The notes beneath the pieces were generated by a model. It was not told the origin of the DNA. It was given only the letters and a program-made list of their open reading frames with translations, and ran no database searches. The position numbers and the translations under genes were made by a program. DNA of 64,000 nt from an uncultured Gammaproteobacteria bacterium (lineage in GTDB: Bacteria; Pseudomonadota; Gammaproteobacteria; DRLM01). Of the stretch, positions 2,486-34,219 are shown piece by piece. Numbering within the stretch: the stretch's first letter is position 1; each line of letters begins with the position of its first letter. The stretch spans positions 1 to 64,000 of the forward strand of contig CAMYKQ010000040.1 in NCBI GenBank assembly GCA_947259075.1, read 5' to 3'.

Positions 2486-2489
2486 TATC

Positions 2490-3551: not shown

Positions 3552-3555
3552 TGCG

Positions 3556-4821: not shown

Positions 4822-4839
4822 TTTTTTAAAAGAGATCAT

Positions 4840-7633: not shown

Positions 7634-7660
7634 GCACGGACAATAGGGAACGAATAAATC

Positions 7661-10488: not shown

Positions 10489-10595
10489 GGAGTACCTCGT
10501 TTGTGTCGTCAGCTACGAATTGGCGCTCATTATAACCGCACACCAGGAGTGATTGCTTGTGTGGCGTAAAAATTACCGAGGAGGATAATTAGATC

Positions 10596-11333: not shown

Positions 11334-11346
11334 AAGGGCTTAATAA

Positions 11347-13814: not shown

Positions 13815-15168
13815 TTTTTACACCCGCTGTATTTCAAGTCTGTTGTTCCCCTTGCAGGAGCGCCTCAAGGGGCACGACACGGTGCGCGTGCACAATGAAT
13901 TGGAACAGAGTCAGTGGTGGCCGGCTGAGCGCATTGCGCAATTTCAGTTGCAGCGTTTGCAGCGTTTACTCGGCCTCGCAGCGCGGCATGTGCCTTATTA
14001 TCGGGACTTGTTCCAGCGCTTGGATTTTCGCCCCGAAGAGTTGAGCTCGGCCGCGGATTTGGCGCGCCTGCCTTTGTTGAATAAAGCGGAGATCCGCGCC
14101 CATGGCGAGGCGATGAAATCCACTCAGGCGCGCGGTTTGGCGCGCTTCAATACCGGCGGTTCCAGCGGTGAGCCGCTGATTTTTTGGATAGGCAAGGAGC
14201 GGGTGAGTCACGACGTGGCCGCCAAATGGCGCGCGACGCGCTGGTGGGGCGTGGATATCGGCGATCCGGAGATCGTGGTGTGGGGCTCGCCGGTGGAGCT
14301 GGGCGCGCAGGACCGTCTGCGCGGCCTGCGCGATAAATTGATGCGCACGCACTTGCTGCCGGCTTTCGAGATGTCGCCGGCGCGCTTGGATGAGTTCGTC
14401 GCGCGGATCCGCGCGCTGAGGCCGCGCATGTTGTTTGGTTATCCCTCCTCTTTGGCCTTGATCGCCCGGCACGCGCGCGAGCGCGGCGTGGCGCTGGATG
14501 ATCTTGGAATCAAGGTGGCCTTCGTCACCGCCGAGCGTTTGTACGAGGCCCAGCGCGCGGACATCGCGCAGGTGTTCGGCTGCCCGGTGGCCAATGGCTA
14601 TGGCGGGCGCGACGCCGGTTTCATCGCCCATCAGTGCCCGGCGGGCGGCATGCACCTCACCGCCGAGGACATCATCGTCGAGATCGTCGATGAGCAAGGG
14701 CAGGCCGTGGCGGCGGGACAGGCGGGCGAGGTGGTGGTGACGCATCTGGCGACGGCGGATTTTCCCTTCATCCGCTATCGCACCGGCGATGTGGCGAGTT
14801 TGGATGACGCTGTCTGTGCATGCGGGCGCGGCCTGCCTTTGCTGAAAGAGATACACGGGCGTACCACCGATTTCATCATCGCCGCCGATGGCACGGTGAT
14901 GCACGGTCTGGCCTTGATTTACGTGGTGCGCGATGTGCCCGGGGTGGCGAATTTCAAGATCATTCAAGAAGACCGATTGCGTACTCGTGTGCAATTGGTG
15001 ACGGGCGCGGGCTTCGCCGATGAGTCCCTGGCCGCGATTCGCGCGGGGATGACGCAACGTTTAGGCGAGGGTGTTGAAATCGTGGTGGAACGGGTGGCGG
15101 ACATTCCGCGCGAGCGTTCCGGTAAACACCGTTACGTGGTGAGTCGCGTGGCTCCCAGTGCACAGTAG
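13807..15168 (+). CDS. phenylacetate-CoA ligase-like adenylate-forming enzyme (CapK/PaaK family)
   Basis: RFNTGGSSGEPLIFW, NGYGGRDAGFIAHQCP, RYRTGDVASL, RTTDFI; ATG at 13807 overlaps the previous stop. Confidence 0.85.
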   Translation: MADFYTRCISSLLFPLQERLKGHDTVRVHNELEQSQWWPAERIAQFQLQRLQRLLGLAARHVPYYRDLFQRLDFRPEELSSAADLARLPLLNKAEIRAHGEAMKSTQARGLARFNTGGSSGEPLIFWIGKERVSHDVAAKWRATRWWGVDIGDPEIVVWGSPVELGAQDRLRGLRDKLMRTHLLPAFEMSPARLDEFVARIRALRPRMLFGYPSSLALIARHARERGVALDDLGIKVAFVTAERLYEAQRADIAQVFGCPVANGYGGRDAGFIAHQCPAGGMHLTAEDIIVEIVDEQGQAVAAGQAGEVVVTHLATADFPFIRYRTGDVASLDDAVCACGRGLPLLKEIHGRTTDFIIAADGTVMHGLALIYVVRDVPGVANFKIIQEDRLRTRVQLVTGAGFADESLAAIRAGMTQRLGEGVEIVVERVADIPRERSGKHRYVVSRVAPSAQ

Positions 15169-15180
15169 GAAGCGGCAGGC

Positions 15181-16485
15181 ATGAGAGACCTAATTGTCTT
15201 GATAGTCGTGATGGGTGCAGTGCCGATGATGCTCGCGCGCCCTCACATAGGCATTTATATGTGGTCGTGGATAGGTTATATGAATCCACACCGCTTGGCC
15301 TGGGGGTTCGCCTCCACATTTCCCTTTGCCTTCGTGATCGCCATCGTGACCTTGGTTGGATATCTGTTTTCCAAAGAACCCAAACGCCTGCCTTGGACTC
15401 GCGAGTCTACCCTCTTGGCGATTTTCGTTGTTTGGATGTTTGTCACCACCTTGGTTGCTTTGAACCCAGACGCGGCTTGGCAGCAGTGGGATAAGATTTG
15501 GAAAATCCAGTTGATGACACTGTTTACCATTCTACTGATGTTGAAAAAGGAACGGATTCAAGGATTGATTTGGGTTATGGCCGGTTCACTGGCGTTTTAT
15601 GGAGTGAAGGGCGGTATCTTCACTGTTCTTACTGGCGGAAATTACCGCGTATGGGGGCCGCCTGGTACCTTCATTGGCGGTAATAATGAAATTGCCTTGG
15701 CGCTGATTATGGCCATTCCTCTTTTACGTTATTTGCAAATAACGGTGGAGAAACGTTGGCAGAAAATGGGCCTCGGAGTGATTATGGTCTTGTGCCTGAT
15801 ATCGGTTGTGGGCACCTATTCGCGAGGGGCCTTGCTTGCCTTGGCCGCCATGGGTTTGTTTTTGGTCTGGAAAAGCCGCAAGCGCATGCCCTTGTTAATA
15901 GGTCTGTTGATTATCGTGCCCGTAGTGGTGCTGATGATGCCTAGCAAGTGGATGGAGCGCATGCAAAGCATCGATGGTTTTCAAGAAGACGCGTCGGCGC
16001 AGGGACGACTAAATTCCTGGGCCTTTGCTTTCAATCTTGCTAAGGATCGTCCTTTAACAGGCGGTGGTTTCGAGACCTTCACACCACGCTGGTTTGCGGT
16101 GTACGCGCCCAACCCTCAAGATGTGCATGATGCGCACAGTATTTATTTTGAAGTGTTGGGTGAGCAAGGCTTCGTGGGCCTGAGTTTTTTCCTGCTGCTG
16201 GGCTGGATGACTTGGCGCAGTGGCGCGTGGATCGTTAAGCACGCCAGGGAGGCCCCTGATACTCAGTGGATGGCCGATCTCGCGCGTATGCTGCAAGTTA
16301 GCATCGTAGGTTATGCGGTCGGCGGTGCATTCTTAGGCTTGGCTTACTTTGACTTCTACTATCACCTGATTGCGGTGGTGGTGTTACTTAAAGTGATGTT
16401 GCAAGACCACCTTAAAGAAAAAGAGGCGGCGCCTGATCGCGCGCCGACGGTGGTCAGCCGAGCAGCTGGGCGCGCGTTAACTTAG
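15181..16485 (+). CDS. O-antigen ligase-like / putative O-glycosylation ligase, exosortase A-associated (TIGR03097-like)
   Basis: Multi-TM; MLARPHIGIYMWSWIGYMNPHRLAWGFA; FIGGNNEIALALIMAIPLLRYL. Confidence 0.9.
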   Translation: MRDLIVLIVVMGAVPMMLARPHIGIYMWSWIGYMNPHRLAWGFASTFPFAFVIAIVTLVGYLFSKEPKRLPWTRESTLLAIFVVWMFVTTLVALNPDAAWQQWDKIWKIQLMTLFTILLMLKKERIQGLIWVMAGSLAFYGVKGGIFTVLTGGNYRVWGPPGTFIGGNNEIALALIMAIPLLRYLQITVEKRWQKMGLGVIMVLCLISVVGTYSRGALLALAAMGLFLVWKSRKRMPLLIGLLIIVPVVVLMMPSKWMERMQSIDGFQEDASAQGRLNSWAFAFNLAKDRPLTGGGFETFTPRWFAVYAPNPQDVHDAHSIYFEVLGEQGFVGLSFFLLLGWMTWRSGAWIVKHAREAPDTQWMADLARMLQVSIVGYAVGGAFLGLAYFDFYYHLIAVVVLLKVMLQDHLKEKEAAPDRAPTVVSRAAGRALT

Positions 16486-18302
16486 CGGCGATGTTGTTGC
16501 AGCCATTGCTCCAGCATCATCAACACCCAGATCATGGCGCCGTAATAGGTGCTGTGTTGGTCGCGATGTAGTGAGATCAATTGATCCAGATACTCGGGTC
16601 TCAGATAACCACGCTGTTTTAGACTACCCAGGCTGTCATAGGCCAGCTCGCGCAAGGGGGCGTGTTCGTGCATCCACAGGCCGAAAGGCAGGCCGAATCC
16701 GTGTTTGGATTTTTTTAGGATATCCTGTGGCAAGAAATCGTTCAGGGCGTCCTTGAAGAAATAACGCAGCTGATAGCCTTTAAGTTTGAGTGAGGCGGGC
16801 ACCCGTCCGGCGAATTCCACCAGCGCTTCATCCAGCAGGGGGTAACGCACGCCCATGCCGGCCAGCTCGCTGGTGCGGCCCACTTTGCGCAAATCATTAT
16901 CGGCGAGCGTGACTTTCAGATCGACGTGCATCATACGGTTGACCGGGTCACGCGAAGCGGTGCGCGCGTAAATTTCGCGCAGATCCTGCACGGGTTCCTC
17001 AGCGTTCACTTGCTCGAGAAAATCGTCGCTGAAAATTTGGTGGATGTCGTGCTGGTGCAAAAAATTATAGGTCTCCAAACGATCGGGCAAGGGGATGCGC
17101 GCCTGCTCGATGTAGCTGCGCAATTTACGCAAGGGCGCGATGGCGCCCGCGCCGGGTAGCTTGAAGGCGAGCGGTTCGATGAGCGCGTGCCGCAGCGCGC
17201 CGGGCAGCGCGCCGTATAATTCGAAGATCTTTTGTTTGGCGTAACGGGCGTTACCGGCGAAGATTTCATCGCCACCGTCGCCCGCCAGCAAGGTGTGAAT
17301 GCCGTCGTCCGCGGCGAGGCGCGCGCAATAATAGGCGGGGACCGCCGAGGCGTTGCCGAAGGGTTCGTCGTAGCCGGCGGCAATCAGCGGCACGGCGCGG
17401 ACGACATCCTCGGGGGTGACGTAGTATTCGTGATAACGCGTGCCGAAATGCCGCGCGGCGATCTTGGCATATGAGGTTTCGTCGAAACCCTCGGCGTTGA
17501 AGCCGATGGAGTAGGTGTCCACCGGGGCGCCGCGCACCTGCGCGAGCATGCCCGCTACGGTGGAGCTGTCGGTGCCGCCGCTGAGGAAGGCGCCCGTCGC
17601 GGGGTCTTGCGCGCAGTTTTCCACGGCTTGGCGCAAGAGGGTGCGGAATTCACGCGCCAGTTCGGCGGGGGACGCGGAGTGGTCTTCGGCGTAGGGCGCC
17701 CGCCAATAGAATTGGCGGGTGACTTGCCCTTTATCGAAGATCAGGCATTCGCCGGGCAGCAGCCGCCGCACCGAACGGTAGATGCTGCGCGGTGCCGCTA
17801 CCACGTGAAAGTAGAGGTAGTTGAAAATGGACTGGCTGTCCAAGCCGGTGTCGAGGCCGGGATAGGCCAGTACGCTGGCGGCATTGGAACCGAAGACCAG
17901 GGTGTCTCCGGACTGGGCGTAATACATGGCGTGATGACCCATACGGTCGGTGGCGAGCAGGCCGCGGCCGTTTTGATCGATGAGCGCGAAGGCGCAGGGT
18001 CCCTTCAGTGTTTGTAGCCATGTGCCGTCATGAGTCCCGTTGGCGGGATAGTGCGCGGCGAGGGCTTGGCCCGGGTTGGATCCCCCGCCGGATGAGGCAT
18101 TCAGCCAGCCTAGCCAGGCGATATTCAATTCATGGCTGGTATGCACGCCGCTGGGTGTTGTACCGCTGGCGCAGCTCAGGCCGTGTGCGCCATTTTGTCT
18201 GGCTTCAGCGGCCACGCCTCCCAGCGCCGTCTGCATTATTCTCAGATTGGTGCCGGCGTCCGTGCCGGGCTGGGCGTTAAACCATCCGCAGATGCCGCTC
18301 AT
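16482..18302 (-). CDS. asparagine synthase-like protein (second copy; N-terminus MSGICGWF, no Cys2)
   Basis: FLSGGTDSSTVAGML PP-loop, LLAGDGGDEIFAG; N-terminus read from the reverse complement of 18282-18302. Confidence 0.88.
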   Translation of the reverse strand: MSGICGWFNAQPGTDAGTNLRIMQTALGGVAAEARQNGAHGLSCASGTTPSGVHTSHELNIAWLGWLNASSGGGSNPGQALAAHYPANGTHDGTWLQTLKGPCAFALIDQNGRGLLATDRMGHHAMYYAQSGDTLVFGSNAASVLAYPGLDTGLDSQSIFNYLYFHVVAAPRSIYRSVRRLLPGECLIFDKGQVTRQFYWRAPYAEDHSASPAELAREFRTLLRQAVENCAQDPATGAFLSGGTDSSTVAGMLAQVRGAPVDTYSIGFNAEGFDETSYAKIAARHFGTRYHEYYVTPEDVVRAVPLIAAGYDEPFGNASAVPAYYCARLAADDGIHTLLAGDGGDEIFAGNARYAKQKIFELYGALPGALRHALIEPLAFKLPGAGAIAPLRKLRSYIEQARIPLPDRLETYNFLHQHDIHQIFSDDFLEQVNAEEPVQDLREIYARTASRDPVNRMMHVDLKVTLADNDLRKVGRTSELAGMGVRYPLLDEALVEFAGRVPASLKLKGYQLRYFFKDALNDFLPQDILKKSKHGFGLPFGLWMHEHAPLRELAYDSLGSLKQRGYLRPEYLDQLISLHRDQHSTYYGAMIWVLMMLEQWLQQHRR

Positions 18303-18577
18303 GAATTTACCTTGTTGCTGCTTTACGCCTACAGTATATCTATTATTCTCGTATTCTCGCGGGCCGATGATACCGGTTCAAGCGGCTTGGGCCAATGGCT
18401 GAGGGGGTCAGAGAGCCGCCAGTGGGGCTTTAACGGGTGATAATTCGTCTTGGCGTAGTTACAATGGCCCGCGAGACACTTTGCCTGAGTTCAGGGAAAG
18501 TTGAGAAGAATGAGTTCCAAGGGCCGTGGCGGTTGGTGATGTGGTTCGCTCCCTCTTAGTTTTTTTGGTTAATACAC

Positions 18578-19183
18578 ATGTTACAAAAGCTGTTTCACAA
18601 AACTTTCATCGCAGCCGTACTCTATGCGGGGTGGCTAGGCCAAGTGGCCCATGGTGTTGCCCAGTTCAATCCGCCCGAGAGTGAGTTGCAACTTTTGCCG
18701 CCCTACTGCGCGACGGTGGCGGGGCCAGCGGGCCAGCGTCAGATGGACGCGGCAGCACAAAAGTGGTTGCAGATATTGGGGCCTGAGTATTACCACATCC
18801 ACCATCATTGTGACGCACTCTGGCATTGGAATTTGGCGCAGCGCACTTTCGGGCAAGCGGAGACACGCTTTACTTATTTAAAGCGTTCGCTTGGCGGTTT
18901 CGAGTATGTAGAAAGTCGTGCGCGTCCTGACTTTGTCCTCAATGCTGAGATTGCCTATTTCAAGGGCCGTGTCTTGTTGGAGATGGGCGAGGTGCAGGCA
19001 GCCCTCGCTTCGTTCGGGCGTTCCATTAAATTTCAGCCGGGTTACTCGCCGCCGTATGCCGCCCTAGCCGATTATTATCTGGGGGCGGGAGAAAAAGGGG
19101 AAGCCCGTAAGATTTTGGATGAAGGTTTGCAACATGCGCCAGATGCCGAGCCTTTGAAGCGGCGCCTCAGCCGCGTGCAATAG
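18578..19183 (+). CDS. TPR-containing exported protein
   Basis: Hydrophobic signal-like N-terminus; TPR pattern (AYFKGRVLLEMGEVQAALASFGRSIKFQPGYSPPYAALADYYLGAG). Confidence 0.7.
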   Translation: MLQKLFHKTFIAAVLYAGWLGQVAHGVAQFNPPESELQLLPPYCATVAGPAGQRQMDAAAQKWLQILGPEYYHIHHHCDALWHWNLAQRTFGQAETRFTYLKRSLGGFEYVESRARPDFVLNAEIAYFKGRVLLEMGEVQAALASFGRSIKFQPGYSPPYAALADYYLGAGEKGEARKILDEGLQHAPDAEPLKRRLSRVQ

Positions 19184-19252
19184 CCGCTGTGTAATACCGC
19201 CCATGATCTTAATGACCGCAAAACGCATGATAAGTAATCACATCAAACACCG

Positions 19253-20332
19253 GTGGCTATGAATTTTCTCAAAGTGTGGGCGCTGCGCGTTTTACAACGG
19301 GTCTTGCGGGCGCAGCCCGTGCGTGAGTTATTGTGGCAGGAAACCAAGGATGTCTTTTCTCAACCCCGGTCACGCGCGCTGGAGTTGCCGCGTTACGTAC
19401 CGCTCCCGCCGCGTTTTGCGCGTGGTGAGGTGGTGGAGGAAATGGTACCCGCTGAAAAGGCGCCGATTTTTGTTACCGCGCGTTTCCGTTCCGGTTCGAC
19501 CTTCCTTTGGCAATTGTTCCGAAATACACCGGGTCTGACCGCCTATTACGAGCCGCTCAATGAAAACCGCTGGTTTGTCGCGGCGGGGCGTCATGTGGTG
19601 GACGCCACGCATAAAGGTGTGGCGGATTATCGCCGCGAGTATGCGGGTATGGACGATTTGGATGGCATTTTCAAGACTGAGTGGACGTATCGTCAGCTGT
19701 ATATGGATCAGCGCAGCCATGATGAATCGCTGCATCGTTACATTGCTGAATTGATACGCCGCAGTCCGGGCCGGCCGGTGCTGCAGTTCAATCGGGTCGA
19801 TTTTCGCTTGCCATGGTTACGGGCGCAGTTTCCGGCGGCGCGTATCGTGCATCTTTATCGTGATCCCCGTGAACAGTGGATGTCTGTCGTGATGAAGATG
19901 GACGCACCTATCCCGCCGAAAATGGGATTACCGCTCAGTGCGTTTAATGACCCGTTTTATACTCTGGAGTGGGCGCGCGATCTGCGTCATGTCTTTCCTT
20001 TTCTGGAGCCCGCTGAGGCGAGTCATCCCTACGAGTTGCATTATTACCTCTGGCGTTTATCGTATTTGTTCGGCAAGCAATGGGCGGATTGTTCTCTGAG
20101 TTACGAAGACTTGATCGGTGACGTCGAAGGTCAGCTCGGTGCACTGTACCGCGTGCTTGGTGTGGAAGACGCTCACGTCCCTGAGCTGGCAGCGCTCAAT
20201 AAAGGCGTGATTGAACAACGCTGGCAGAGTTATGCCTCCGCGGAATGGTTTTTCAGCATCGAACGGCATTGTGAGCGTGTGCTGACAGCGTTTTTTTCTG
20301 ATCTGGCACCAGACACGGGAAAGACAAACTAG
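19253..20332 (+). CDS. sulfotransferase-like protein
   Basis: PIFVTARFRSGSTFLWQLFRNTPGL PAPS-loop-like; IVHLYRDPREQWMSV. Confidence 0.75.
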   Translation: MAMNFLKVWALRVLQRVLRAQPVRELLWQETKDVFSQPRSRALELPRYVPLPPRFARGEVVEEMVPAEKAPIFVTARFRSGSTFLWQLFRNTPGLTAYYEPLNENRWFVAAGRHVVDATHKGVADYRREYAGMDDLDGIFKTEWTYRQLYMDQRSHDESLHRYIAELIRRSPGRPVLQFNRVDFRLPWLRAQFPAARIVHLYRDPREQWMSVVMKMDAPIPPKMGLPLSAFNDPFYTLEWARDLRHVFPFLEPAEASHPYELHYYLWRLSYLFGKQWADCSLSYEDLIGDVEGQLGALYRVLGVEDAHVPELAALNKGVIEQRWQSYASAEWFFSIERHCERVLTAFFSDLAPDTGKTN

Positions 20333-21514
20333 ATGACCGATGAGGGGCGGAATAAGGCAGCGGATTGCCTCGTCATCAGTGAGTTGTTTCTGCCTACTAA
20401 AGGAGGAACCGCCGTGTGGTTCGCAGAGGTTTATCGGCGTTTAGGCGGTCAAAATATTCATATCGTTACCGCCGACGTGGCCGACGCGCAAGCATTCGAT
20501 AAACAGCATCCCAACACAGTGCATCGTGTTTCTCTACGCCGTTATCGCTGGTTGAAACCGGAGTCGCTCGCACTATACGTGCGTCTGTTTTGGCGTGGGT
20601 TGGTGGTGGGTCTGCGGGCTAAGCCCGCATCGATACACGCCGGCCGGGTATTGCCAGAAGGCTTGGTTGCTTGGGCGCTGGCGCGCCTATTACGCCGTCC
20701 GCTGATTATTTACGCGCATGGAGAAGAGATCACCACTTGGCGTACGCCTGGGAAGCGGCGCGCGATGATATTCGCTTATAAACACGCAGATCGAGTGATC
20801 GCGAATAGTGATTTTACTCGCGAGTTGCTGATTGGTTTAGGTGTCGTGCCCTCGCGAATAGCCTTAATCAGTCCGGGTGTTGATATCAGTGTGTTTCATC
20901 CGGGAGAGGATGGCGCCGAGCTGCGTCAACGGCTTGGACTTGGCGCCGAGGAACGCTTGATTTTGTCGGTGGGGCGCCTCAGCCGGCGCAAAGGCTTTGA
21001 TCAAGTCATACGTGCATTGCCTGATTTGCTGGCGCGCGGACTTGATGTCCATTACGCGCTTATAGGTATCGGCGAGGACGATGCGTATTTGCGTGGCCTT
21101 GCCGATGAAATGGGTGTGCGCGAGCGCCTACATATGTTGGCACATCAATCGAGTGAAGATTTGCCGCGTTGGTACCGGGCGGCTGATGTCTTCGCCATGC
21201 CCAACCGTGAAATAGGTGGCGACACCGAAGGATTTGGCATGGTGTTTCTTGAGGCGGCGGCCAGTAGCAAGCCCTCGGTCGCGGGTATGGCGGGTGGGAC
21301 TGGCGCGGCTGTGATTGATGGTCAGACGGGATTGCGCGTGGACGGCAATGCCGTTGATGCGGTGAACGCGGCCTTGTGGCGCTTATTGAGTGATCCTGTT
21401 TATGCGGAAAAGCTGGGCGCGCAAGGCGCGCAGCGGGCTCGTGAGCAATATGCCTGGGAAGCCGTGGCGGTAGCCACGCTGAACTTGATGCAAGAAGTGT
21501 CCTGCAATAAATAA
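20333..21514 (+). CDS. glycosyltransferase family 4
   Basis: LPTKGGTAVWFAEVYRRLGG; SVGRLSRRKGFDQVI; EGFGMVFLEAAASSKPSVAG. Confidence 0.9.
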   Translation: MTDEGRNKAADCLVISELFLPTKGGTAVWFAEVYRRLGGQNIHIVTADVADAQAFDKQHPNTVHRVSLRRYRWLKPESLALYVRLFWRGLVVGLRAKPASIHAGRVLPEGLVAWALARLLRRPLIIYAHGEEITTWRTPGKRRAMIFAYKHADRVIANSDFTRELLIGLGVVPSRIALISPGVDISVFHPGEDGAELRQRLGLGAEERLILSVGRLSRRKGFDQVIRALPDLLARGLDVHYALIGIGEDDAYLRGLADEMGVRERLHMLAHQSSEDLPRWYRAADVFAMPNREIGGDTEGFGMVFLEAAASSKPSVAGMAGGTGAAVIDGQTGLRVDGNAVDAVNAALWRLLSDPVYAEKLGAQGAQRAREQYAWEAVAVATLNLMQEVSCNK

Positions 21515-22669: not shown

Positions 22670-22673
22670 ATTT

Positions 22674-24938
22674 TCACTGCGAGTGGCTTTGTCGTTGTGG
22701 CGCGTTGTCAATGCTTGTACGTTGCGGCGACTTGCTCACGAGATAGCTGCCATTCCACGTGAATTGGGCGTCGGCTGAAATCCAGTCAATGAGTCTTTGG
22801 CGCAATTGTGCCGCCACCTCGGGATAGCGGTCAATCACGTTCACTTCGCAATCGGGGTCGGCGATGATGTCGAACAGCCAATAGACGGCGCCGTCTTGCA
22901 TGGGCAGATACACCAATTTCCAGCGGTCGGTGCGCAGCATGCGGTCCTTGGCCTGAATCACCCGTTGTTCAAACTCCGGTTTGAGTGCCAAGGTGCCGCT
23001 CTGTTTGTCGGGGATCTCCAGCATCTCCAGTAAGGAGGGATAACGCAGATGGTTGTTGGCCAGACCGGGGATATTACCCAGCCACACGCCGGTTTCATGA
23101 AACGCAGCTAAATCGAGATCGGTTTTCGGGTCGTCGAGATAGGGGATGAGTGACACCCCCTCCATAGCGGCGGGCACGGGTTGATTCAGCAAACCTAACA
23201 GCGTAGGCGCGAGATCCACGCTGCGCACGACGTGTTTCACCATCGTGCCGCCGGGGCGGCGCGGGTCGATAATCAGCAGAGGGATACGGGCGCTGGGGTC
23301 ACGGCCGATGACGCTATTCCCTTGTCCCCAGCTTTGGCGTTCGAACAAATCGGTGCCGTGATCGCTGTAGATGACGATGAGGGTATTGCGTTCCAGTCCC
23401 TGCGCGCGCAGGTGACCGACGATGTCCGCAACGGCGTCGTCGAACTGGCGCACGGCGCCGTCGTAAAGGTTGATGATTTGGTCCACGTCGAAGGCGCTGG
23501 CGTCCTCTTCCTGGCGTTTGATGATGGAGGAGGGGTCTTTCAGCCCGTCGATGGCGAATTTGGTGGACCCCCGGTAAGCGTGATCCGAGAACAAAGTGTA
23601 GTAGGGATACTCAGAGCCGAAGGGGGCATGGGTGGTGGCGATGAAGACGTTGAGCAGAAAGGGCTGTTTCTGCGCCGCAAGTTGGTTCAGCGCCTGTTCC
23701 GCTTCACGGGTCATGTGGCTCGTGAGCGGCACGCCAGCCAAATAGTACAGCTCGGGCAGAAAGCGGCGGCCGAACTGGTTGTGGGTGAACAGCGATAAAA
23801 ACAGCCGGATATCCTTGGGGCCTTGGCGCATCAGGTATTTCAAGTTCCACTGGTCGGGCGCGGTGTGTGTTTCCTGAAAGCCTAAGGAGAGTTTGCTCAG
23901 ATCGCTGGCGGCCCAGTCACCGATGCTCACCGTGTGATAACCGCTGCGCGCTAATATGCTTGGCAGGCCCGCGACGGGGAGCTGGGCCGCCTGATCGGAG
24001 ATGTAGTTATCGCGTACGCCGTGGGTGTGCGGCCAAGTGCCGGTGAGCAGTGAGGTGATGCTGGGTGCAGTGCGCGCCAGTGGAACATAGGCGTTGGTGA
24101 AGAAGGTGCCCCGCGCGGCCAGTTGATCGATGAAGGGCGTCAAGTTACGAGTGTAGCCGTTGAGGCCAATGCGGTCGGCGCGGAGTGTGTCGGAGCCTAT
24201 CAAGAGGATATTCGGCCGCGAGGTGTCTGAGGCGGGCGCCGCGGCTATGGGCGTAACCTCGGGTGCCCATGTTGCCCACAGACCGAGCGCGAGTACGCCA
24301 CTCCATGCGCCGATCAGCCCCGCCGACCAGCGATACTTGCCTTGCCGCGCTAGGCGCCAAGCAGCCGTGGCGGTGATGATTACCACCAAGACAGCGAGCA
24401 GACTATCGGCAATCAGCAAGCGCCGCGGGCTCAGTTGTTCCCACAAAGGATGGAAGCGCGCCATGTCGTAAAGCGACGAGGCGACGATGCTGCTGGGGAT
24501 ATAGAGCAACTGATGGATGAATTGTACGGCGCTGAGCCCGGCCAGCCCTGCTCCGGCGGCGCAGGCGATGGCCCAGCGCCTTAGCCGCCAGTCGAAAATC
24601 GCGCAGAGACTGGCGTAGAGTAGGGCACCCAGTCCGCCGAGCAGGAAGGCGATCAACAGAGTCCAGCCCGCCAGGCGCGCCAAGGTGAAGGCGGCATAGC
24701 CGGTATAGTGGGCCAGAATTTCATCGCGGATGGTCGGGCCCGTGGTCGTGAAATCGAATGCTGATTTGACAAGCAAGACTAGGGTGAATACGACTGAGAC
24801 AGCAAACACTAAACCCAACGCGGTGCGCAGGGAGGGTGAGGGTTGGGCGGGGTGCATGCCTAGCATGGCAGGTTGTGAAAGGGGGCTATTTGGTGCGTGC
24901 ATTGTTCTGGCGCGGACGGCGCCACCTCGTATTTCCAA
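22674..24938 (-). CDS. membrane-anchored sulfatase/phosphotransferase-superfamily protein
   Basis: N-terminal TM helices; NILLIGSDTLRADRIG; TAPSITSLLTGTWPHTHGVR; VIYSDHGTDLFERQSWGQGN. Confidence 0.85.
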   Translation of the reverse strand: MEIRGGAVRARTMHAPNSPLSQPAMLGMHPAQPSPSLRTALGLVFAVSVVFTLVLLVKSAFDFTTTGPTIRDEILAHYTGYAAFTLARLAGWTLLIAFLLGGLGALLYASLCAIFDWRLRRWAIACAAGAGLAGLSAVQFIHQLLYIPSSIVASSLYDMARFHPLWEQLSPRRLLIADSLLAVLVVIITATAAWRLARQGKYRWSAGLIGAWSGVLALGLWATWAPEVTPIAAAPASDTSRPNILLIGSDTLRADRIGLNGYTRNLTPFIDQLAARGTFFTNAYVPLARTAPSITSLLTGTWPHTHGVRDNYISDQAAQLPVAGLPSILARSGYHTVSIGDWAASDLSKLSLGFQETHTAPDQWNLKYLMRQGPKDIRLFLSLFTHNQFGRRFLPELYYLAGVPLTSHMTREAEQALNQLAAQKQPFLLNVFIATTHAPFGSEYPYYTLFSDHAYRGSTKFAIDGLKDPSSIIKRQEEDASAFDVDQIINLYDGAVRQFDDAVADIVGHLRAQGLERNTLIVIYSDHGTDLFERQSWGQGNSVIGRDPSARIPLLIIDPRRPGGTMVKHVVRSVDLAPTLLGLLNQPVPAAMEGVSLIPYLDDPKTDLDLAAFHETGVWLGNIPGLANNHLRYPSLLEMLEIPDKQSGTLALKPEFEQRVIQAKDRMLRTDRWKLVYLPMQDGAVYWLFDIIADPDCEVNVIDRYPEVAAQLRQRLIDWISADAQFTWNGSYLVSKSPQRTSIDNAPQRQSHSQ

Positions 24939-25033: not shown

Positions 25034-26503
25034 TCAGCCCGCGCGCCGCCAGAAGGCTAGGGTTTGCTTCCAACGTTGCGCCTCACTCGCCAGCACCTTG
25101 ATGGGCAAAAACAGAAAACAGGCGGCATACACTGTTCCTCCGGCGAGGCACATGCCGAGTAAATACCAGGCGGGGTGCAGGTTGGCGTTCAAAGAATTAA
25201 AGCCGACATGGGCTGCCCATAACGTGCCGAACAGTATTGCGTTGAGCAAAAGGGCCGGCCGCAAGGCGGCGAGCAGCTGCGTGCCGCGTCCCGCCAGCGT
25301 AGTGTTCGCTAAGCGGAACAGGCGCCAGGTTTGATATGCCCTCAAGGTGATCACCGTCCCGGCGATGCCATTGAGACCCCAGCGGACAGTGATCAGACAG
25401 CCCGCGGTGAGCAATATCCCATAGACGATTTGGATGCGCATTTCGGCACCTAAGCGGTCCTGTGCCGCGATTACCGCGCGAGATGGCCAGGCGACGCAGT
25501 GGAAAATTCCGGCCAATACCAGGATTCGCAATGGTTCCGCCGCGCCCAACCAGTGGGCGCCGTAAACCACTTCGATAAAGGGCGCCGCGAGCCACCACAA
25601 ACCCACATAAAGTGGCAAGGTATAGACGCTCACTAGGGTAATGGTGCGGAAATAAAGATAACGCGAGCTGGGTAGATCATCCTGTTGAGTGGATAAGGCG
25701 CGAAATGCGGTTTGATACGCAGGCTGGCCGATGATATCGATAGGCGTAAAGTGTAGACTTACGGCCTTGTTGTACAGGCCAAGGGTGGCAGGGCCGAGTA
25801 GCCGGCTGATAATAATGTTGTCGATCTGGCGGTTGACGTAGACCACTAGATTATTTACCGACATGCGCATGCCGTAGCCGCCGAGCTTTTGTATAACCGC
25901 CCGATTGAGATGGAGTTTGAGGGGTTGGCGAGCGAGAATCATCAGCAGGGGGATGGTGATGAGCTTGCTTATCAACGGACTGAGGATCAGGCTCCAAACG
26001 CCATAGTCCTGCCATGCGAGGCTCACCGCGATAATCCCGCTTAGCGCCATACTGAAAAACAGCATGCCGGCCTGGGCTTTGAAGCGCATTTCACGCTGTA
26101 ATGACGCGTGGAGCGTGCTGTAAAACGGGCGCCAGAGGAAGTCGATGGCCGCGACCCGCATCAGTTCTACATAGCCGGGATTGTCGAAGGCCAAGGCAAA
26201 CCATGGCGCGAATAGGTAAAAACCCGTGAAAATGAGGATGCCAATGATGAGTTGGACGGTGAACATCACATCATAATCACGCAGTCCAAGTTCTTTGCTC
26301 TGCACAAGGGCCATGGCGACCCCGCCGCCAGCGACCATGCCCACTACTCCGGTAAAGATTTGCACCGTGGTGACAAGGCCGAAATCCTCGGGTATCAGCA
26401 GGCGAGCCAGCGCGATGCCGAATATAAACTGGCTGACTTGAATGCCGACGTTTTTAGTGATCAGCCACTGAGTGCCGTTGCGCACTGAATTACCCAAGGT
26501 CAC
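25034..26503 (-). CDS. polysaccharide flippase (Wzx/MATE-like)
   Basis: Multi-TM; WLITKNVGIQVSQFIFGIALARLLIPEDFGLVTTVQIF N-terminal signature. Confidence 0.85.
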   Translation of the reverse strand: MTLGNSVRNGTQWLITKNVGIQVSQFIFGIALARLLIPEDFGLVTTVQIFTGVVGMVAGGGVAMALVQSKELGLRDYDVMFTVQLIIGILIFTGFYLFAPWFALAFDNPGYVELMRVAAIDFLWRPFYSTLHASLQREMRFKAQAGMLFFSMALSGIIAVSLAWQDYGVWSLILSPLISKLITIPLLMILARQPLKLHLNRAVIQKLGGYGMRMSVNNLVVYVNRQIDNIIISRLLGPATLGLYNKAVSLHFTPIDIIGQPAYQTAFRALSTQQDDLPSSRYLYFRTITLVSVYTLPLYVGLWWLAAPFIEVVYGAHWLGAAEPLRILVLAGIFHCVAWPSRAVIAAQDRLGAEMRIQIVYGILLTAGCLITVRWGLNGIAGTVITLRAYQTWRLFRLANTTLAGRGTQLLAALRPALLLNAILFGTLWAAHVGFNSLNANLHPAWYLLGMCLAGGTVYAACFLFLPIKVLASEAQRWKQTLAFWRRAG

Positions 26504-26859: not shown

Positions 26860-29800
26860 GTGAACTATCGGCAACTCCACGCAATGTTTGGCTCGTTTAT
26901 ATTTATCGCGTTGTCTCTCGTTCCGCCACTGGCCATGGCGGAGCGTCAGGCTCAATATGCCGCCCTGAATTACGATGTGGTCTATGTGCGTTGTCCCCGT
27001 GGCCGAGAACCGATGATTCGGCCCGATGGCGCGAGCGCGGCGATGTTGAATTGGGGTGGCGTCAATGATGTGTGGTTGTCCGCTGCCAACAATATTTATC
27101 AGCAACCTGGCTGTGATTTGGTGATGCATCACTCTGATCCGGCCTATGGAGGGGGTTTACGTCCAGGCCATCCCGGCCGGGAAGAGGTGCTGGTGAACTG
27201 TGATGAAGCTGATGCTAGTCAAGCCATCTGCACCATAGCCGATCCCAATGTCGCTTTCGACGGGCGGTCTATTATCTACACTAAATTCACCGATACCCGT
27301 CAGTGGGTGACTGATGAAGGTTTTTCTGGCGATGGTGGTATTGGGTCCAGCCGCCATAAGCAAAGTTTTATGCGCTTGTATCCCGATGGCGATGGGCCGG
27401 GTGGTGTATTTGGGCAACGCTTGCCCAGTCCCATCAAGGCTTTTAATGCCCCCGCGCTGATCTACCGTTATGATCTTCAAAGCCGCAGCGAAAGCTTGGT
27501 GTCTCCCCCGGCCACCCATTTCGCCGGCCGCGCGCATCCCGGCAAGGACAGTGAGTGGCGCAGCAATATCCCGGTGATGGATACCGGCCCCTTCTTTATG
27601 GCCGATGGCCGCATCGGTTTTACCAGCAATCGGGCCAGCGGGTTCTATCAATTTCAATTATTCGCCATGAGTCAGGACGGCAGCAATCTTGAGTTGCTGG
27701 GGCATCGGGCCATGGGCCAGCAACTGCATCCGGCCACGCTCAAGGATGGGCGCGTGATGTACACCAGTCAGGATGTCATGCTGCAAAAGGTGGACAATAA
27801 TAATTATTCCTTGTTTACCATCAACGCTGACGGTTCCGATCCCTTCATCCTGGCGGGCAAACAGGATCCCACCGCCTTTTCCTACCATTACGCCACCCAA
27901 CTATCCGACGGTGATGTGATAGTCACTCTGTATTACAACCACAACAACGGTGGTATGGGTTCCTTGCTGCGTTTTCCCATTGATCCGCCCGGTCCGGACT
28001 TCATGCATCTCGAAGGAGGACTCGATAATACCGTACCTTTTTTGAAAGAAGGTTGGCGCTCCGGCGTGGGGCTGATCCCCTTTGCCCGGGTGGGACAGTT
28101 CGTGCTGACGCCCCAAGCCCGCTGGGGCGATGCTCAGGCTTTGTCCTATGATTCAACCGCTGATTACTGGTTGCATCCCAGTGACGGCCGCACGGTGACC
28201 ATGACTGGGAAATTCTCCCACCCCGCGGCGGCGCCGGATAATGATTTACTGGTGACCTACACGATTGGCGGCTCATCCACGATGGAGCACCCGGCCTTGC
28301 GCGACCGCAACGCGGCTTTGCAAATGATAGGTAAGGATGCGGGCATTTGGCTCTTACCGTTGGATACCCGCAGCGAGCGACGGATTCAACACATCGCCGA
28401 CGATGGGCTGATCGTGGTGGACTTTCCCGAATATCACGAAATCATGGCGCGGCCGTTGGTGACATACAACCGTATCTACTCGATGGCCAAACCAGGCATC
28501 GACACGGCGGGGAAACCTACGCGCCAGGCGCAAGTGACTGACAATTCGGGTACCAAGGATCTCCGCCTGCCTGCGGGGGCGCCGTGGGGTCTTTCAGGAG
28601 CGGCATCCTTGTATGACCGGGAAACGCGTTCATTGAACGGCATCCCTTGGAATATGCAAGATGGCGGCGGCGTGATGGCCGGACGCACCTATCTCAATCT
28701 CGCCGCGAATGGCGCGGACTTGGCAATCTTCGATAACGCGGAGGTCTATGGCATCCGCGTGCTGCTGCCCTTGCCGCCCGTGCCCAATAATTATTCAGGT
28801 GGTGTTGAGCAATGGGCTGGGATTCAGAAACACCATATGCGTATATTGGGCGAGTTTCCCGTACGCAAAGCCGATGGCACGCCCTTGGACGGCCAGGGTA
28901 ATCCCGACACCAGTTTCATCGTGCGCTTGCCGGCGGATACGCCCTTCTTGTTTCAGAGCATCGACAAACGCGGCATGGCGCTCGACATTGAAACCGCGGC
29001 GCGGACGGTTGCTCGCGGTGAGCAGCAATTATGTACGGGTTGTCATGTGCATACCCGCGAGGGCATGGATCCCTTTCAATCACTGGCCAAGCGGGACACC
29101 AGCGTCTTTGGTGACTTCACTGGTCAGAGCGCACCCTTGTTCGCGGGTTTGGACTCCGCGGGTAAGCCGCAAGTGCGCTCGGCCACAGACATCTATCGCT
29201 CACTCGCGGGTGTGAACGCGCGGCGCAGTTTCGCGGTGGACTGGAAAAACGGGATCAGTGATGTGATCGAGCGCCGTTGCGCGAGCTGTCATGGCGAGGG
29301 CAAGCCGGCGCAAGTCCTGACCGGTCTGCGGCTGGACGGCGACGATCGCAGCTATGAGCTGATCACCTCGAATCAATATAGGCGCGAAGACGGCGCCGTC
29401 ATCAATTCTAATACCCGCCCGGGCGATGGTCTGACCGATGTGCTGGCTAAGACGCCGGGTAGCGATCGCATTACCCCTCGCAACAGCTGTTGCACACCGT
29501 CGCGCTGGTTGTCGCTCAATAGCGCGCGCTCCAGCATGCTGGTGTGGGCCTTGTACGGCGAACGCATGGACGGACGCGACCCGCTGACGGGATTGCCGCC
29601 CGCAGGCAGCGGCGTGCCAGTGGATGATTGGGGGCGCGAAAACCCGGAAATCTGGCCCTTGGTCGGTGAGCATGCCGCTTATGTCGCGGATATGAGTGAG
29701 GATGAAAAACGCTTGATCGCCCGCTGGATCGACTTGGGCGCGCCTAAGCTCAATATTCACGATGATCTCGCCCGTCCGGTGTTGACACTCACGCCGGTGC

Positions 29801-30636
29801 CGAGCGGCGGGGTGGTGAATACGGTGCTGGTGGGCGTGTGGGATGACTCCGCTTTGGATTACAGCCGTTTTGCCGTGCGCCACAACGGCAAGCTCATCAT
29901 GAGCGGCGCCGAACTCACCGGCGAACCGAACGTGATCAGCGTGAGCCTGCCCGTCGGCCTGACTGACACCAATGCCGGCGATCACCAATTTGAATTTGAG
30001 ATTTGGGACCGCCCCGACCGCGCCTTGAGTCTGGTCAAACCCGGTGTGGCGGCGGCCAATCGCAGCCGGATTGCTATTGATGGCCGTGGTTTGTTGCGCA
30101 TGGTCGGCATCTCCACCAACCGGGCGCCGCGTTTCACCAGTGCTACTCTGCGCGTGGCCATGGGCTCCAGCGGGACTGCCGTGCCCTATGTCGATGACCC
30201 CGACGTGGGAGACAGTCACCTCATTTCCTTCGTCGCGCAACCCGCGCACGGAGAGGCTTCGGTGGAGAATAATAAACTCGTCTACCGGCCCAATCCCGGC
30301 TATCTCGGCCGCGACAGCTTCACCTATCAAGTGGAAGACTTGAGCGGTCTGACGGTGAAAGGCACGGCGGCGGTGGAGGTCGTGGAAGCCACGGTGCTGG
30401 CGGTGGAGGCGGCCGCGGCGGGCGGCGGCTCCACTAGCAAAGCGAACGGTGGCACGGGTGGCGGCACCAATAGTGGCGGCACGGGAACGGTTGCGGCGGG
30501 TGGCGGCGCGGGGATGGCCGCCGCGGGTGGCGGCGGCGCGCTGGCCTATTATTGCTTGTGCCTGCTTTTATTGTCGGCCGCTATGCGGCGCGGGCGTGCC
30601 ACCGGGCTACGCCATTGCAGAGCGGGCCGCGTTTAG
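26860..30636 (+). CDS. HzsA-like (hydrazine synthase alpha-related) two-heme-motif exported protein with Ig-like domain and C-terminal TM tail
   Basis: Signal-like N-terminus; TolB-like propeller (RIGFTSNRASGFYQFQLFAMSQDGSN); CTGCH and CASCH motifs; RDSFTYQVEDLSGLTVKGTAAVEVVE; Gly-rich linker + ALAYYCLCLLLLSAA + RRGR. GTG at 26860 or ATG at 26884. Confidence 0.75.
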   Translation: MNYRQLHAMFGSFIFIALSLVPPLAMAERQAQYAALNYDVVYVRCPRGREPMIRPDGASAAMLNWGGVNDVWLSAANNIYQQPGCDLVMHHSDPAYGGGLRPGHPGREEVLVNCDEADASQAICTIADPNVAFDGRSIIYTKFTDTRQWVTDEGFSGDGGIGSSRHKQSFMRLYPDGDGPGGVFGQRLPSPIKAFNAPALIYRYDLQSRSESLVSPPATHFAGRAHPGKDSEWRSNIPVMDTGPFFMADGRIGFTSNRASGFYQFQLFAMSQDGSNLELLGHRAMGQQLHPATLKDGRVMYTSQDVMLQKVDNNNYSLFTINADGSDPFILAGKQDPTAFSYHYATQLSDGDVIVTLYYNHNNGGMGSLLRFPIDPPGPDFMHLEGGLDNTVPFLKEGWRSGVGLIPFARVGQFVLTPQARWGDAQALSYDSTADYWLHPSDGRTVTMTGKFSHPAAAPDNDLLVTYTIGGSSTMEHPALRDRNAALQMIGKDAGIWLLPLDTRSERRIQHIADDGLIVVDFPEYHEIMARPLVTYNRIYSMAKPGIDTAGKPTRQAQVTDNSGTKDLRLPAGAPWGLSGAASLYDRETRSLNGIPWNMQDGGGVMAGRTYLNLAANGADLAIFDNAEVYGIRVLLPLPPVPNNYSGGVEQWAGIQKHHMRILGEFPVRKADGTPLDGQGNPDTSFIVRLPADTPFLFQSIDKRGMALDIETAARTVARGEQQLCTGCHVHTREGMDPFQSLAKRDTSVFGDFTGQSAPLFAGLDSAGKPQVRSATDIYRSLAGVNARRSFAVDWKNGISDVIERRCASCHGEGKPAQVLTGLRLDGDDRSYELITSNQYRREDGAVINSNTRPGDGLTDVLAKTPGSDRITPRNSCCTPSRWLSLNSARSSMLVWALYGERMDGRDPLTGLPPAGSGVPVDDWGRENPEIWPLVGEHAAYVADMSEDEKRLIARWIDLGAPKLNIHDDLARPVLTLTPVPSGGVVNTVLVGVWDDSALDYSRFAVRHNGKLIMSGAELTGEPNVISVSLPVGLTDTNAGDHQFEFEIWDRPDRALSLVKPGVAAANRSRIAIDGRGLLRMVGISTNRAPRFTSATLRVAMGSSGTAVPYVDDPDVGDSHLISFVAQPAHGEASVENNKLVYRPNPGYLGRDSFTYQVEDLSGLTVKGTAAVEVVEATVLAVEAAAAGGGSTSKANGGTGGGTNSGGTGTVAAGGGAGMAAAGGGGALAYYCLCLLLLSAAMRRGRATGLRHCRAGRV

Positions 30637-33600
30637 GGTGCGGCGGCCGCCGCACTGATGTTTTTCAATTGATGCACGCGGCTGCCTTGTTCATCACGGA
30701 CTTCGACGCGCAGGCTGGTGCCGGCCGGGCTGAAAAACCAGCGGGTGACGCGCGCCGCTCCGCTGATCTCTATTCCGATCTCATCTGGCTTATTGCCTTC
30801 AAGGCGCGTGATTTCGTGCCTGGGTATTTGTCCCGCCAAGCTCGGCAACATCACCACTAAGAAATGATCTTCCAGCTGGTCCGCGGCGGGCGATAATTCA
30901 ATGCGCCATTGGCCCGGTTCGGCGTCCTTGCGCCGCGCCAGTTTGGCTTGCACGCCTTCATCGTAGTTATATCCGTCCACTTCAAAAGCGTGCCCCTCAC
31001 CGCCCACGAGCTTGAGCGTGTGTTGCGCGGGGAGTAGCACATGGCCTTCCAAGTTGCCGCCCGCGTGCCCCGCGCCGTCGCGGGCGGCGACGCGCAGTGT
31101 AAAGCCATCGGGCGTGAGCGCCGGTTTTTCCAGGCTGTGCAGCAACCAGCGTTTGCGAAATTGCGCTTGGGTGGCGCGCACCGTGTCGAAGACGATGATG
31201 ACGTCGTCGATGCGGTCATAGGCAAAGACGCGGCGGAAATTTTCGACGCGGCGCGTGCGCTGCGAGAAGCTGCCGCTGCCGGAATAGCGGTTGGTGTAAG
31301 CGGGCGTGATATCCGCGATGGCGACATTCAGACCGTCATCGATGAGCAAATTTTCGATGTGACCGGTGTGATAGAGCTCGCGCTTGGCCTGCCATTCGGC
31401 TACGTCCAGCGGCGCGGGGTCGGCGCCCCAGCCCGAGCCGATGCGGCGCTGGCCGCCGTCGTTGGCGATATGGCGCGCCTCGTTTTTACCGCGCGGCGGT
31501 ATCGGCACGGTGTCAGCGGGGTCGGTGACGGTAAGCGTGTTGTGGGCGATGGTTTGATAGGTGTAGTTCATGTGGTGGTCGGCGCCGTAATTGGGGCCGT
31601 ACAGGCCGCTATCGATGGCCAGAGCGCCGCCTTTATAAATCGTGAACGCCCCTTGATCGAGGTGCGAGTGCGACCAGTAATTATCCCCGGCCTTGAAGTC
31701 GACATAGGTCGCATCGGGACCCCAGTCACTGCGTGCGCTGAGCAGGCCGATGCCGTCGAAAAATTGCGCCAGCGGCAGACGGGTGAGCGCCGCCGGGTTG
31801 GACATCGTTCTGTCCACCAGCGGCCCCCAGGGCCATGAGCTGGGGACCGGGCCTTTCGGCGGCGGGCGCAGGCTGAAGCTGGGCGCGTGCTGGTATTCCG
31901 CCGCCAGCGCCCATTGATCGGGCACGGCGCGGTCGAAGAAGGCGGCGTCGCCCCAGCGGAAATAGGTGCCGTCGGGGCGGGTGCGGTAGACCAGAAAATC
32001 CAGAAAGCCGCGCAAGCCCGGTTCGCTGGCGAAGAGGTCTTCGCCCGTGGCCTTGCGCCACATCGCGGGCAATTGATAGACCGCGTCGCCGATGCCGATG
32101 CCGACGTATTCGCCGCCCTCGTGCCAGCCGCCGTTGCGCCCCATCACCTGCCGCCACACCGGCAGGATACGGTTTTTCCAATAATCTTGGGTGAAGGCCA
32201 TCACCGCCTCGCCGCGCGGGTCGTCGCCGTAGAGGGCGATGGCGCAGGCCATCAAGGCTTGAAAGGGGCTGTTGTAAAGATAGACGTTGTAGGGCGAGAG
32301 CCGCTGTTCGCGGATGAAACGGATTTCGTATTCGCAACCCTCGGCGAGCTTGCCGCGCAGTTGCGCGCGCTGGCTCTCGCTCCATTGATCGTAGAGCCAG
32401 TCATAGGCCATCGCCACGGGTTTGGTTTGGTCGTGGCCGCGGGCAATGTATTTTAGATTCATGAGTGTTTGATGTAAGGCCGCGAGGTTTTGGCTGCCGG
32501 GTTCGATGTAGGCCATTAAGATGGCGGGGTTGAGATGGCCATTGTCCGCGTGGCGTAGTTGTTGTTTGATGTACTGGGGATTGCGTTCGCGCAGTGTCTC
32601 GATGTCTTGGGTGCTGGGCGCGGGCAGGCGGGGATGCGCTTGACGAAAATATGGGAGATGGACCGCGGTCAGCTCTCCGGTTTTGGGCAGATGCGCCAAG
32701 GACCGGCCCTCGACGGGATTTTCGCGGGCGGGCATGAAGCCCCAAATCGTCAACAGGCTCACGGCAATCACGCTGAAGCTGAGAAGCGCGGCGCGGGGGC
32801 TTAAGCGCGGATGCGGCGGGGTTTCAGTCATTTTTTTGTTGTGGCCGCCGTGGACCTGCAGTAGCCACGGCAAGCTCCAGCCCAGCAGTGCGAGGATGAC
32901 ATCGGTGATGTCGGGATGCAGGCCCGGTATGCGGGTTTGTAGATATTGCAGTCCGAGTGTATATGTGAACACCGCGATACCGCCTGCCAGCATCACGCCG
33001 CGCCGCGGTTGGCGGAGGAGGCTGAGATACGCCAATGCGGCGAAGGGCCATAACGCGGCGATGAGATCGTTAAGCGCGCCTGGCTGGTGTTGATGATCGC
33101 GAAACGGCAGCCAGTTGAAGGCATGGAGCGTCACGTTGGGATAAGGGTCAGTTCGCAATTGCGCCAGGGTGTAGGCCAGCAATAGCAACAGGCTTGCGAG
33201 TAAGGCCCAAGTTTTTTTTGGTAAGGCGATCAGTAGCGGCAAAACTAAGAGTCCGCCGACGCTGCCGATCAAGGCCTCTAATGATAATTGGCGGCCAACG
33301 ACCGGGATTTGCAGAAATAACACGGCCAGTACGACGACGCCGAAATAGCGCACTAGGCGATAACCCGGTGTAAGAAGGGTGGCGGTTAGCAGCCCCAGTC
33401 CGGCTACCGTGCAGACCTGAGCCAGTGCTTGGGTAAGATTGAAGGTGCTGCTGAGTTGTTTCAATGTCTGCAACAACGGCCTTAGGCCTTCGGCGAGATT
33501 GCCCCGGTCGAGGGAGGGGATCAGCGGTAGCAATTGCGCCAGTAGCCACAGCGCAAGCACGAGCAAACCGATGTCGGCGAGTGGGCCTGAGACGAACCAA

Positions 33601-34082
33601 TGCTCACGCAGCCGCCGTACACCCCCGCCGTAAAATAGATGAAGCTTGAGATAATTCGCCGCTAGCGCGCCGATGAGGGTGCCGCTGCCGTTGAGCGCGG
33701 TGTCGAGCAAGGATGGTACCCGCTGGGGTATGTAGTTTTGTAAGTACTCCAGTCCCAGACTGAGCGCGACCCCGCACAGCGTCGTGAGGATGATGGCGGT
33801 GCCGGCGCTGACACGGCGCCGCCACCCCAACATCAGCAACAGCCCCAGGGGCAGGTACACCGCTAAGTTGACGATGATATCGCTGCGCGAGACCTGAGAC
33901 GGCCAGCTCAAAGGTATGAAGTGATCAAGGACGGTGCGGTGCCAGTCCCAGCTCGTTAGGGGAAAGAGGGTGCCGTAAACCAGCAGCAATAAATAAACAC
34001 TGCTTAATTTCCCAAAGACCCGGGCGTGGCGGTCAGCGGAGCGTTGCGATGGCTGTGAGTCTGCTGTCACGAAGTCGCTCAT
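30633..34082 (-). CDS. VanZ-like membrane domains fused to a heparinase II/III-like polysaccharide lyase domain
   Basis: N-terminal multi-TM with VanZ-like LVYGTLFPLTSWDW / DIIVNLAVYLPLG; C-terminal SHSHLDQGAFTIYKGGALAIDSG. ORF open to 34190; start at MSDFVTADS (34082) preferred. Confidence 0.82.
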   Translation of the reverse strand: MSDFVTADSQPSQRSADRHARVFGKLSSVYLLLLVYGTLFPLTSWDWHRTVLDHFIPLSWPSQVSRSDIIVNLAVYLPLGLLLMLGWRRRVSAGTAIILTTLCGVALSLGLEYLQNYIPQRVPSLLDTALNGSGTLIGALAANYLKLHLFYGGGVRRLREHWFVSGPLADIGLLVLALWLLAQLLPLIPSLDRGNLAEGLRPLLQTLKQLSSTFNLTQALAQVCTVAGLGLLTATLLTPGYRLVRYFGVVVLAVLFLQIPVVGRQLSLEALIGSVGGLLVLPLLIALPKKTWALLASLLLLLAYTLAQLRTDPYPNVTLHAFNWLPFRDHQHQPGALNDLIAALWPFAALAYLSLLRQPRRGVMLAGGIAVFTYTLGLQYLQTRIPGLHPDITDVILALLGWSLPWLLQVHGGHNKKMTETPPHPRLSPRAALLSFSVIAVSLLTIWGFMPARENPVEGRSLAHLPKTGELTAVHLPYFRQAHPRLPAPSTQDIETLRERNPQYIKQQLRHADNGHLNPAILMAYIEPGSQNLAALHQTLMNLKYIARGHDQTKPVAMAYDWLYDQWSESQRAQLRGKLAEGCEYEIRFIREQRLSPYNVYLYNSPFQALMACAIALYGDDPRGEAVMAFTQDYWKNRILPVWRQVMGRNGGWHEGGEYVGIGIGDAVYQLPAMWRKATGEDLFASEPGLRGFLDFLVYRTRPDGTYFRWGDAAFFDRAVPDQWALAAEYQHAPSFSLRPPPKGPVPSSWPWGPLVDRTMSNPAALTRLPLAQFFDGIGLLSARSDWGPDATYVDFKAGDNYWSHSHLDQGAFTIYKGGALAIDSGLYGPNYGADHHMNYTYQTIAHNTLTVTDPADTVPIPPRGKNEARHIANDGGQRRIGSGWGADPAPLDVAEWQAKRELYHTGHIENLLIDDGLNVAIADITPAYTNRYSGSGSFSQRTRRVENFRRVFAYDRIDDVIIVFDTVRATQAQFRKRWLLHSLEKPALTPDGFTLRVAARDGAGHAGGNLEGHVLLPAQHTLKLVGGEGHAFEVDGYNYDEGVQAKLARRKDAEPGQWRIELSPAADQLEDHFLVVMLPSLAGQIPRHEITRLEGNKPDEIGIEISGAARVTRWFFSPAGTSLRVEVRDEQGSRVHQLKNISAAAAAP

Positions 34083-34219
34083 AGGCTGGTTTTTCCGGAG
34101 AATGAGGCCGGTTGTTTCGCGTCCTTGACTCTCACGGCACGGGACTCTGGTGAATGATTGTGGTATTTGTGATGGAGCGTCATTATTCAAGACGGAATTG
34201 TATCAGAGGCATTTTAAGG

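Follow-up and report, generated by a model that had tools for sequence, protein, structure and literature searches.

The locus described here raises the question of which role a two-heme protein resembling the alpha subunit of hydrazine synthase (HZS-alpha, HzsA) might fulfil at the end of an exosortase-A exopolysaccharide (EPS) locus. Hydrazine synthase was long believed to be without relatives; HZS-alpha-like proteins outside the anammox bacteria are already reported, and no such relative has an experimentally confirmed function (PMC12758564). In the following, the window is the whole stretch of 64,000 nucleotides that was analyzed; an earlier note had been made from its letters.

Architecture of the Protein

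The gene is one intact ORF of 1258 amino acids with a GTG start and the sequence AGGGA just 5' of it. A promoter and terminator scan yielded consensus matches alone, which were given no weight. A foreign origin judged by composition was rejected, the GC content of the gene being 0.595 versus 0.601 for the window, with no sign of recent transfer. The following parts were assigned.

26860..30636, plus strand: HZS-alpha-like diheme protein, 1258 aa (domain search, profile alignment, structure match)
26860..26940, plus strand: probable Sec signal peptide, residues 1-27, ending in PPLAMA and followed by ER (read from the sequence)
26971..28272, plus strand: TolB-like propeller, about residues 38-471 (model and conservation of H290 and H343)
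28900..29046, plus strand: HZS_alpha (PF18582) match, residues 681-729 (Pfam)
29032..29046, plus strand: heme motif I, C725-TG-C728-H729 (invariant, 28 sequences)
29050..29052, plus strand: H731, two residues past the CxxCH His, at the position of HzsA Gly589 (invariant, 28 sequences)
29056..29058, plus strand: R733 at the position of HzsA Tyr591 (alignment)
29278..29292, plus strand: heme motif II, C807-AS-C810-H811 (conservation across 28 sequences)
29671..29673, plus strand: H938, aligned with HzsA His772, the distal ligand of heme alpha-II (alignment)
30118..30375, plus strand: bacterial Ig domain Big_9, residues 1087-1172 (Pfam)
30526..30597, plus strand: GlyGly-CTERM-like tail GGGGALAYYCLCLLLLSAAMRRGR (by eye; below TIGR03501 detection for this protein)

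The PF18582 match scores 34.1 bits, above the gathering cut-off of 26.6, and CTGCH (725-729) and CASCH (807-811) are the sole CxxCH motifs among all ORFs called in the window. The succession of a TolB/propeller-like region, two heme motifs and an Ig domain, as read in the earlier note, was borne out by Pfam, by the motifs and by an AlphaFold model.

Relationship to Hydrazine Synthase

The model covers residues 29-1079 with a pLDDT of 77 and a pTM of 0.81. When it was compared with the PDB by Foldseek, the best matches were the HZS-alpha chains 5c2v_A/D (E 2e-22), followed by TolB. The TM-score of the 5c2v match is 0.56-0.57 by target length at a global rmsd of about 10-11 Å and, because this rmsd is high, the packing and arrangement of the domains relative to 5c2v are uncertain. 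For the heme region, a profile of 28 sequences found HZS-alpha 5c2v as the sole natural match in the PDB (E 1.7e-27), the remaining matches being designed propellers. Foldseek, profile and PF18582 agree with the HzsA-reminiscent layout that had been noticed before, and the window protein is, by its sequence, a two-heme member of the HZS-alpha-like family and fold.

In HzsA, His587 of the CxxCH motif binds zinc, Tyr591 binds heme alpha-I, and heme alpha-II has bis-His ligation (PMC12607021, PMC12758564). Residue 556 of the 5c2v chain is Cys583 as counted in the alignment, giving an offset of 27, and chain His745 is His772. The stretch CHVHTR of the window protein aligns without gaps with CHYGSY of HzsA, which confirms the exchange of the Tyr four residues past the CxxCH His for Arg (Arg733) that the earlier note had pointed out; a Tyr is found at this position in none of the 28 aligned sequences. 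HzsA Cys303 aligns with a non-conserved position, its equivalent being absent. Both heme motifs, H731 of the CxxCHxH arrangement and H938 are conserved without exception in the 28 sequences, the most distant of which are about 20% identical. Since H811 and H938 align with the ligands of heme alpha-II, the bis-His pair appears to be kept, and the propeller residues H290 and H343, invariant in the 19 nearest sequences, are candidates for a heme-I pocket.

A genuine hydrazine synthase alpha subunit would share the fold, the two heme sites and the HZS_alpha domain. Hydrazine synthesis by the window protein is nevertheless very unlikely as judged from its residues, because Tyr591 is replaced and the Cys303 position is not conserved. 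Further arguments against such a subunit are the score of 36.1 bits against the NCBIfam HzsA equivalog NF052339, for which the cut-off is 800, and the lack of an HzsBC-like partner in the window, where neighbours were searched by Pfam and NCBIfam and no other heme ORF was called. A second HZS_alpha copy in the same genome was dismissed as a possible supplier of HzsBC, since Pfam shows nothing HzsBC-like among its neighbours. The doubts about hydrazine synthesis voiced earlier, and the failure to see a partner nearby, have held, and a true hydrazine synthase can practically be discounted.

Family and Distribution

HZS_alpha proteins are not rare in the class; they occur in 57 of 369 sampled genomes, mostly as members of another clade of about 900 amino acids. 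The second copy of the same genome, a protein of 881 amino acids (L033:6343-8988, on G000:C35, minus strand), belongs to that clade and adjoins DUF3570, thioredoxin-like and ApbE genes as well as a gene for a LamG protein that contains two CxxCH motifs. The window protein falls into a subfamily that branches apart from the approximately 900-aa clade with a support of 100/100. Its members were found at 21 further loci in gammaproteobacterial metagenome-assembled genomes (MAGs), at 54-66% identity (about 60%), and four weaker relatives are near 30% identity. Two genomes of the same genus and three of the same family were searched and contain no full-length copy, from which the distribution is seen to be patchy; plasmid-borne copies were not found by tblastn. 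The carriers are mostly MAGs, and their isolate names hint at hydrothermal vents, as far as a habitat can be read from names. ORFs were called greedily by the scripts, so that some boundaries of neighbouring genes are approximate; a frameshift appears to be present in L041, and contig ends truncate L035, L047, L049, L052 and L054.

C-Terminal Tail and Sorting Route

The tail displays, by eye, a Gly-rich motif, a hydrophobic stretch and a basic end. Sorting of the window protein by the XrtA/PEP-CTERM system was rejected, as a PEP motif is absent and the PEP-CTERM models gave no match. The GlyGly-CTERM model TIGR03501 does not match the window tail either; it recognizes a secreted neighbour protein in L042 (17.6 versus a cut-off of 15.5), while a neighbour in L036 and the tails of the L042 and L048 homologues remain below the cut-off. 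According to the authors of the GlyGly-CTERM description, true tails may score below TIGR03501 and are recognized via homologues (PMC3237569). The genome itself encodes a rhombosortase (160 bits, cut-off 84) and the type II secretion system (T2SS) secretin GspD (593 bits, over the cut-off). Given the missing PEP motif, the GlyGly-CTERM-like tail and the rhombosortase in the genome, XrtA is probably not the sorting enzyme of this protein.

Rhombosortase is present in 14 of 17 carrier genomes, the exceptions having a different tail. Among carriers with a readable tail, it exceeds the cut-off in all nine genomes with Gly-rich tails versus none of the three with an IFxxGFE tail (L034, L043, L044; p 0.0045). 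The latter group represents at least two lineages, since L043 and L044 are sisters in the tree and L034 stands separately. A C-terminal tail of the IFxxGFE type is common to the HzsA-like and neighbouring secreted proteins of L034, L043, L044, L051 and L053 and is possibly an unrecognized sorting tag. For GlyGly-CTERM proteins of Vibrio cholerae, clipping and modification of the protein and its transfer to the surface via the T2SS have been described (PMC6219818).

Gene Neighbourhood

The window gene is located at the end of the exosortase-A EPS locus, with the following surroundings.

357..21514, plus strand: exosortase-A EPS locus (Pfam/NCBIfam on ORFs)
22674..24938, minus strand: sulfatase (Pfam/NCBIfam)
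25034..26503, minus strand: polysaccharide flippase, divergent neighbour (Pfam/NCBIfam)
30633..34190, minus strand: VanZ + DUF4962 + heparinase II/III-like fusion, convergent neighbour (Pfam/NCBIfam; a related protein lies beside the L048 homologue)

The EPS locus comprises exosortase A (4840-6405), an XrtA deacetylase, FemAB, glycosyltransferases, amidotransferases, the O-ligase TIGR03097 and a sulfotransferase (19253-20332). Pfam and NCBIfam agree with the earlier reading of the neighbours as a flippase, a sulfatase-fold enzyme and a polysaccharide lyase fusion. Pointing away from the flippase and towards the lyase fusion, the window gene shares an operon with neither of them. A second amidotransferase (16482-18302, minus strand) is below the TIGR03108 cut-off, with similar ones beside the L047 and L054 homologues, and an ORF of 355 amino acids (21644-22711, minus strand) has no Pfam or NCBIfam match. 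The presence of a sulfotransferase, a sulfatase and a heparinase-type lyase within a single EPS locus suggests that its polymer may be sulfated and contain uronate.

Among the relatives, an alginate lyase (PF05426) adjoins nine loci (L036, L037, L038, L039, L042, L043, L044, L045 and L053). With only 26 PF05426 domains in the 20 genomes searched, chance alone would place one beside about 0.06 of 14 loci; this estimate is rough, as loci are related, some of them are short and nearby genes were counted by eye. A Calx-beta and esterase lipoprotein-like protein adjoins eight loci (L035, L038-L042, L049 and L052); as the loci are related, such adjacency counts are not independent. Several homologues, e.g., those of L034, L042, L043 and L053, are on the same strand as their neighbours with gaps below 100 bp. 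In L041, the esterase is the sole partner of this kind, the other neighbours being mostly housekeeping genes.

Links to EPS/XrtA genes are found at L046 (TIGR03097, 03098, 03099), at L048 (TIGR03100 and the heparinase-like relative of the window fusion) and at L047 and L054, where the homologues adjoin the amidotransferases below the TIGR03108 cut-off and the L054 contig also has an XrtA core; the distant L088 homologue adjoins exosortase A. Of the 17 carrier genomes, nine have XrtA over the cut-off, compared with 70 among the 365 non-carriers in the class (Fisher p 0.003, kinship ignored); those carriers that came from a sequence scan were sampled differently from the class background. Restricted to the evenly drawn class sample, the figures are three of four carriers versus 70 of 365 (p 0.03). 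As to the co-occurrence with XrtA loci, of which the earlier note had suggested a survey, XrtA was not found in the near-complete carrier G201 (L036), and alginate lyases and the Calx-beta esterase are commoner neighbours than exosortase-A genes. Since the same-genus genome G001 has a syntenic XrtA core without the HZS-alpha-like gene, the latter is dispensable for EPS. Of the earlier reading, a surface redox protein tied to polysaccharide loci has gained support, while the predicted surface route points to rhombosortase instead of XrtA and the exosortase link is partial.

Possible Function

The explanation that fits best, and is given a slight preference over all others taken together, is that of a diheme c-type cytochrome from the HZS-alpha-like superfamily, located at the cell surface and working on or within an acidic polysaccharide. 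Family, fold, heme ligands, the tail/rhombosortase pattern and the neighbourhood are taken from the sequence; from these we infer location, substrate and reaction. The protein would be exported by the Sec system, and the hemes would be attached in the periplasm. Rhombosortase would then clip the C-terminal tail and put a lipid-type anchor in place, with export occurring via the type II system. At the surface, the propeller would serve as a binding platform; heme I, with its CxxCHxH motif and without the Tyr, would be a reactive site or an electron relay, and heme II (H811/H938) would act as entry or exit port for electrons. Most likely, redox chemistry would take place on a uronate-rich or sulfated polymer that is made, de-esterified or cleaved by the products of neighbouring genes.

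The two c-hemes, the invariant bis-His-type heme II and the predicted surface anchor would also suit an extracellular electron-transfer protein, a surface relay that exchanges electrons with minerals, sulfur compounds or other cells, with EPS providing the location only; the vent-like isolate names of the mainly MAG-type carriers point in the same direction, as far as names reveal habitat. This is unlikely, though worth keeping in mind, as the operon-like linkage is to lyases and esterase and not to porin-cytochrome or multiheme genes, and as the protein has just two hemes and its ORF is the only one in the window with a CxxCH motif. The adhesin-like propeller and Ig/cadherin-like domains, together with partners carrying many Ig domains, would be in line with a structural or adhesive matrix protein whose hemes are vestigial or merely stabilize the fold. 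The invariance of the heme motifs, H731 and H938 described above would be unexpected for vestigial sites, and this alternative is rated as somewhat more doubtful still. Reduction of a bacterial lytic polysaccharide monooxygenase (LPMO) by a c-type cytochrome is reported (PMC8981238), and the protein might accordingly donate electrons to an LPMO or another secreted copper enzyme. An LPMO partner of the AA10 family is largely refuted by the lack of AA10 genes in the own genome and in all close carriers searched, which renders the donor role highly improbable. The preferred reading, a surface cytochrome acting on acidic polysaccharide, could be carried further: the HZS-alpha scaffold might be a general heme platform, and the subfamily a new class of surface-anchored heme-c oxidoreductases acting on uronate-rich or sulfated polysaccharide beside lyases and esterase. 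This extension is speculative.

Comparison with Known Systems

With HzsA of Kuenenia stuttgartiensis (5c2v), the window protein shares the order of propeller, heme-I middle domain and heme-II C-terminal domain and the distal His. It differs by the lack of Tyr591 and Cys303 equivalents, the invariant CxxCHxH, an extra Ig domain and sorting tail, the polysaccharide setting and the lack of an HzsBC neighbour. The non-anammox HZS-alpha-like clades I-IV (Hagglund et al., PMC12758564) are likewise distant relatives of HZS-alpha, and clades I-III also lack Tyr591. All four clades are encoded next to a fused beta-gamma partner, and His772 is missing from clade I; by the clade descriptions, the window subfamily is set apart through the missing partner, the retained His772 equivalent and the polysaccharide neighbours. 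The approximately 900-aa gammaproteobacterial clade, represented by the second copy of the genome, has CxxCHxH, a second CxxCH and a conserved C-terminal His in common with the subfamily, whereas it forms the separate branch, an Ig domain was not found and the neighbours are of the DUF3570/thioredoxin-like/ApbE type.

The tail architecture resembles that of VesB-type GlyGly-CTERM/rhombosortase substrates of V. cholerae (PMC3237569, PMC6219818), and rhombosortase and T2SS secretin are available in the window genome; unlike VesB, the protein is a heme protein and not a protease, and its tail is not seen by TIGR03501. Extracellular redox proteins of Teredinibacter turnerae (PMC10916295) are also large, with c-type cytochrome domains, carbohydrate chemistry and an unsettled role; they are described there as X183 cytochrome domains, and the likeness is one of description.

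No paper joining HZS_alpha to polysaccharide loci was found within a partial coverage of the literature, and the polysaccharide and surface link of HZS-alpha-like proteins appears to be new. With more than one in seven sampled genomes of the class having an HZS_alpha match, such matches are not to be taken as anammox markers. The subfamily supplies a genomic setting of lyases, esterase and EPS loci, a predicted path to the surface and a handful of invariant residues, and by virtue of these the function of HZS-alpha-like proteins, and a role of the scaffold that may precede anammox, become directly testable.
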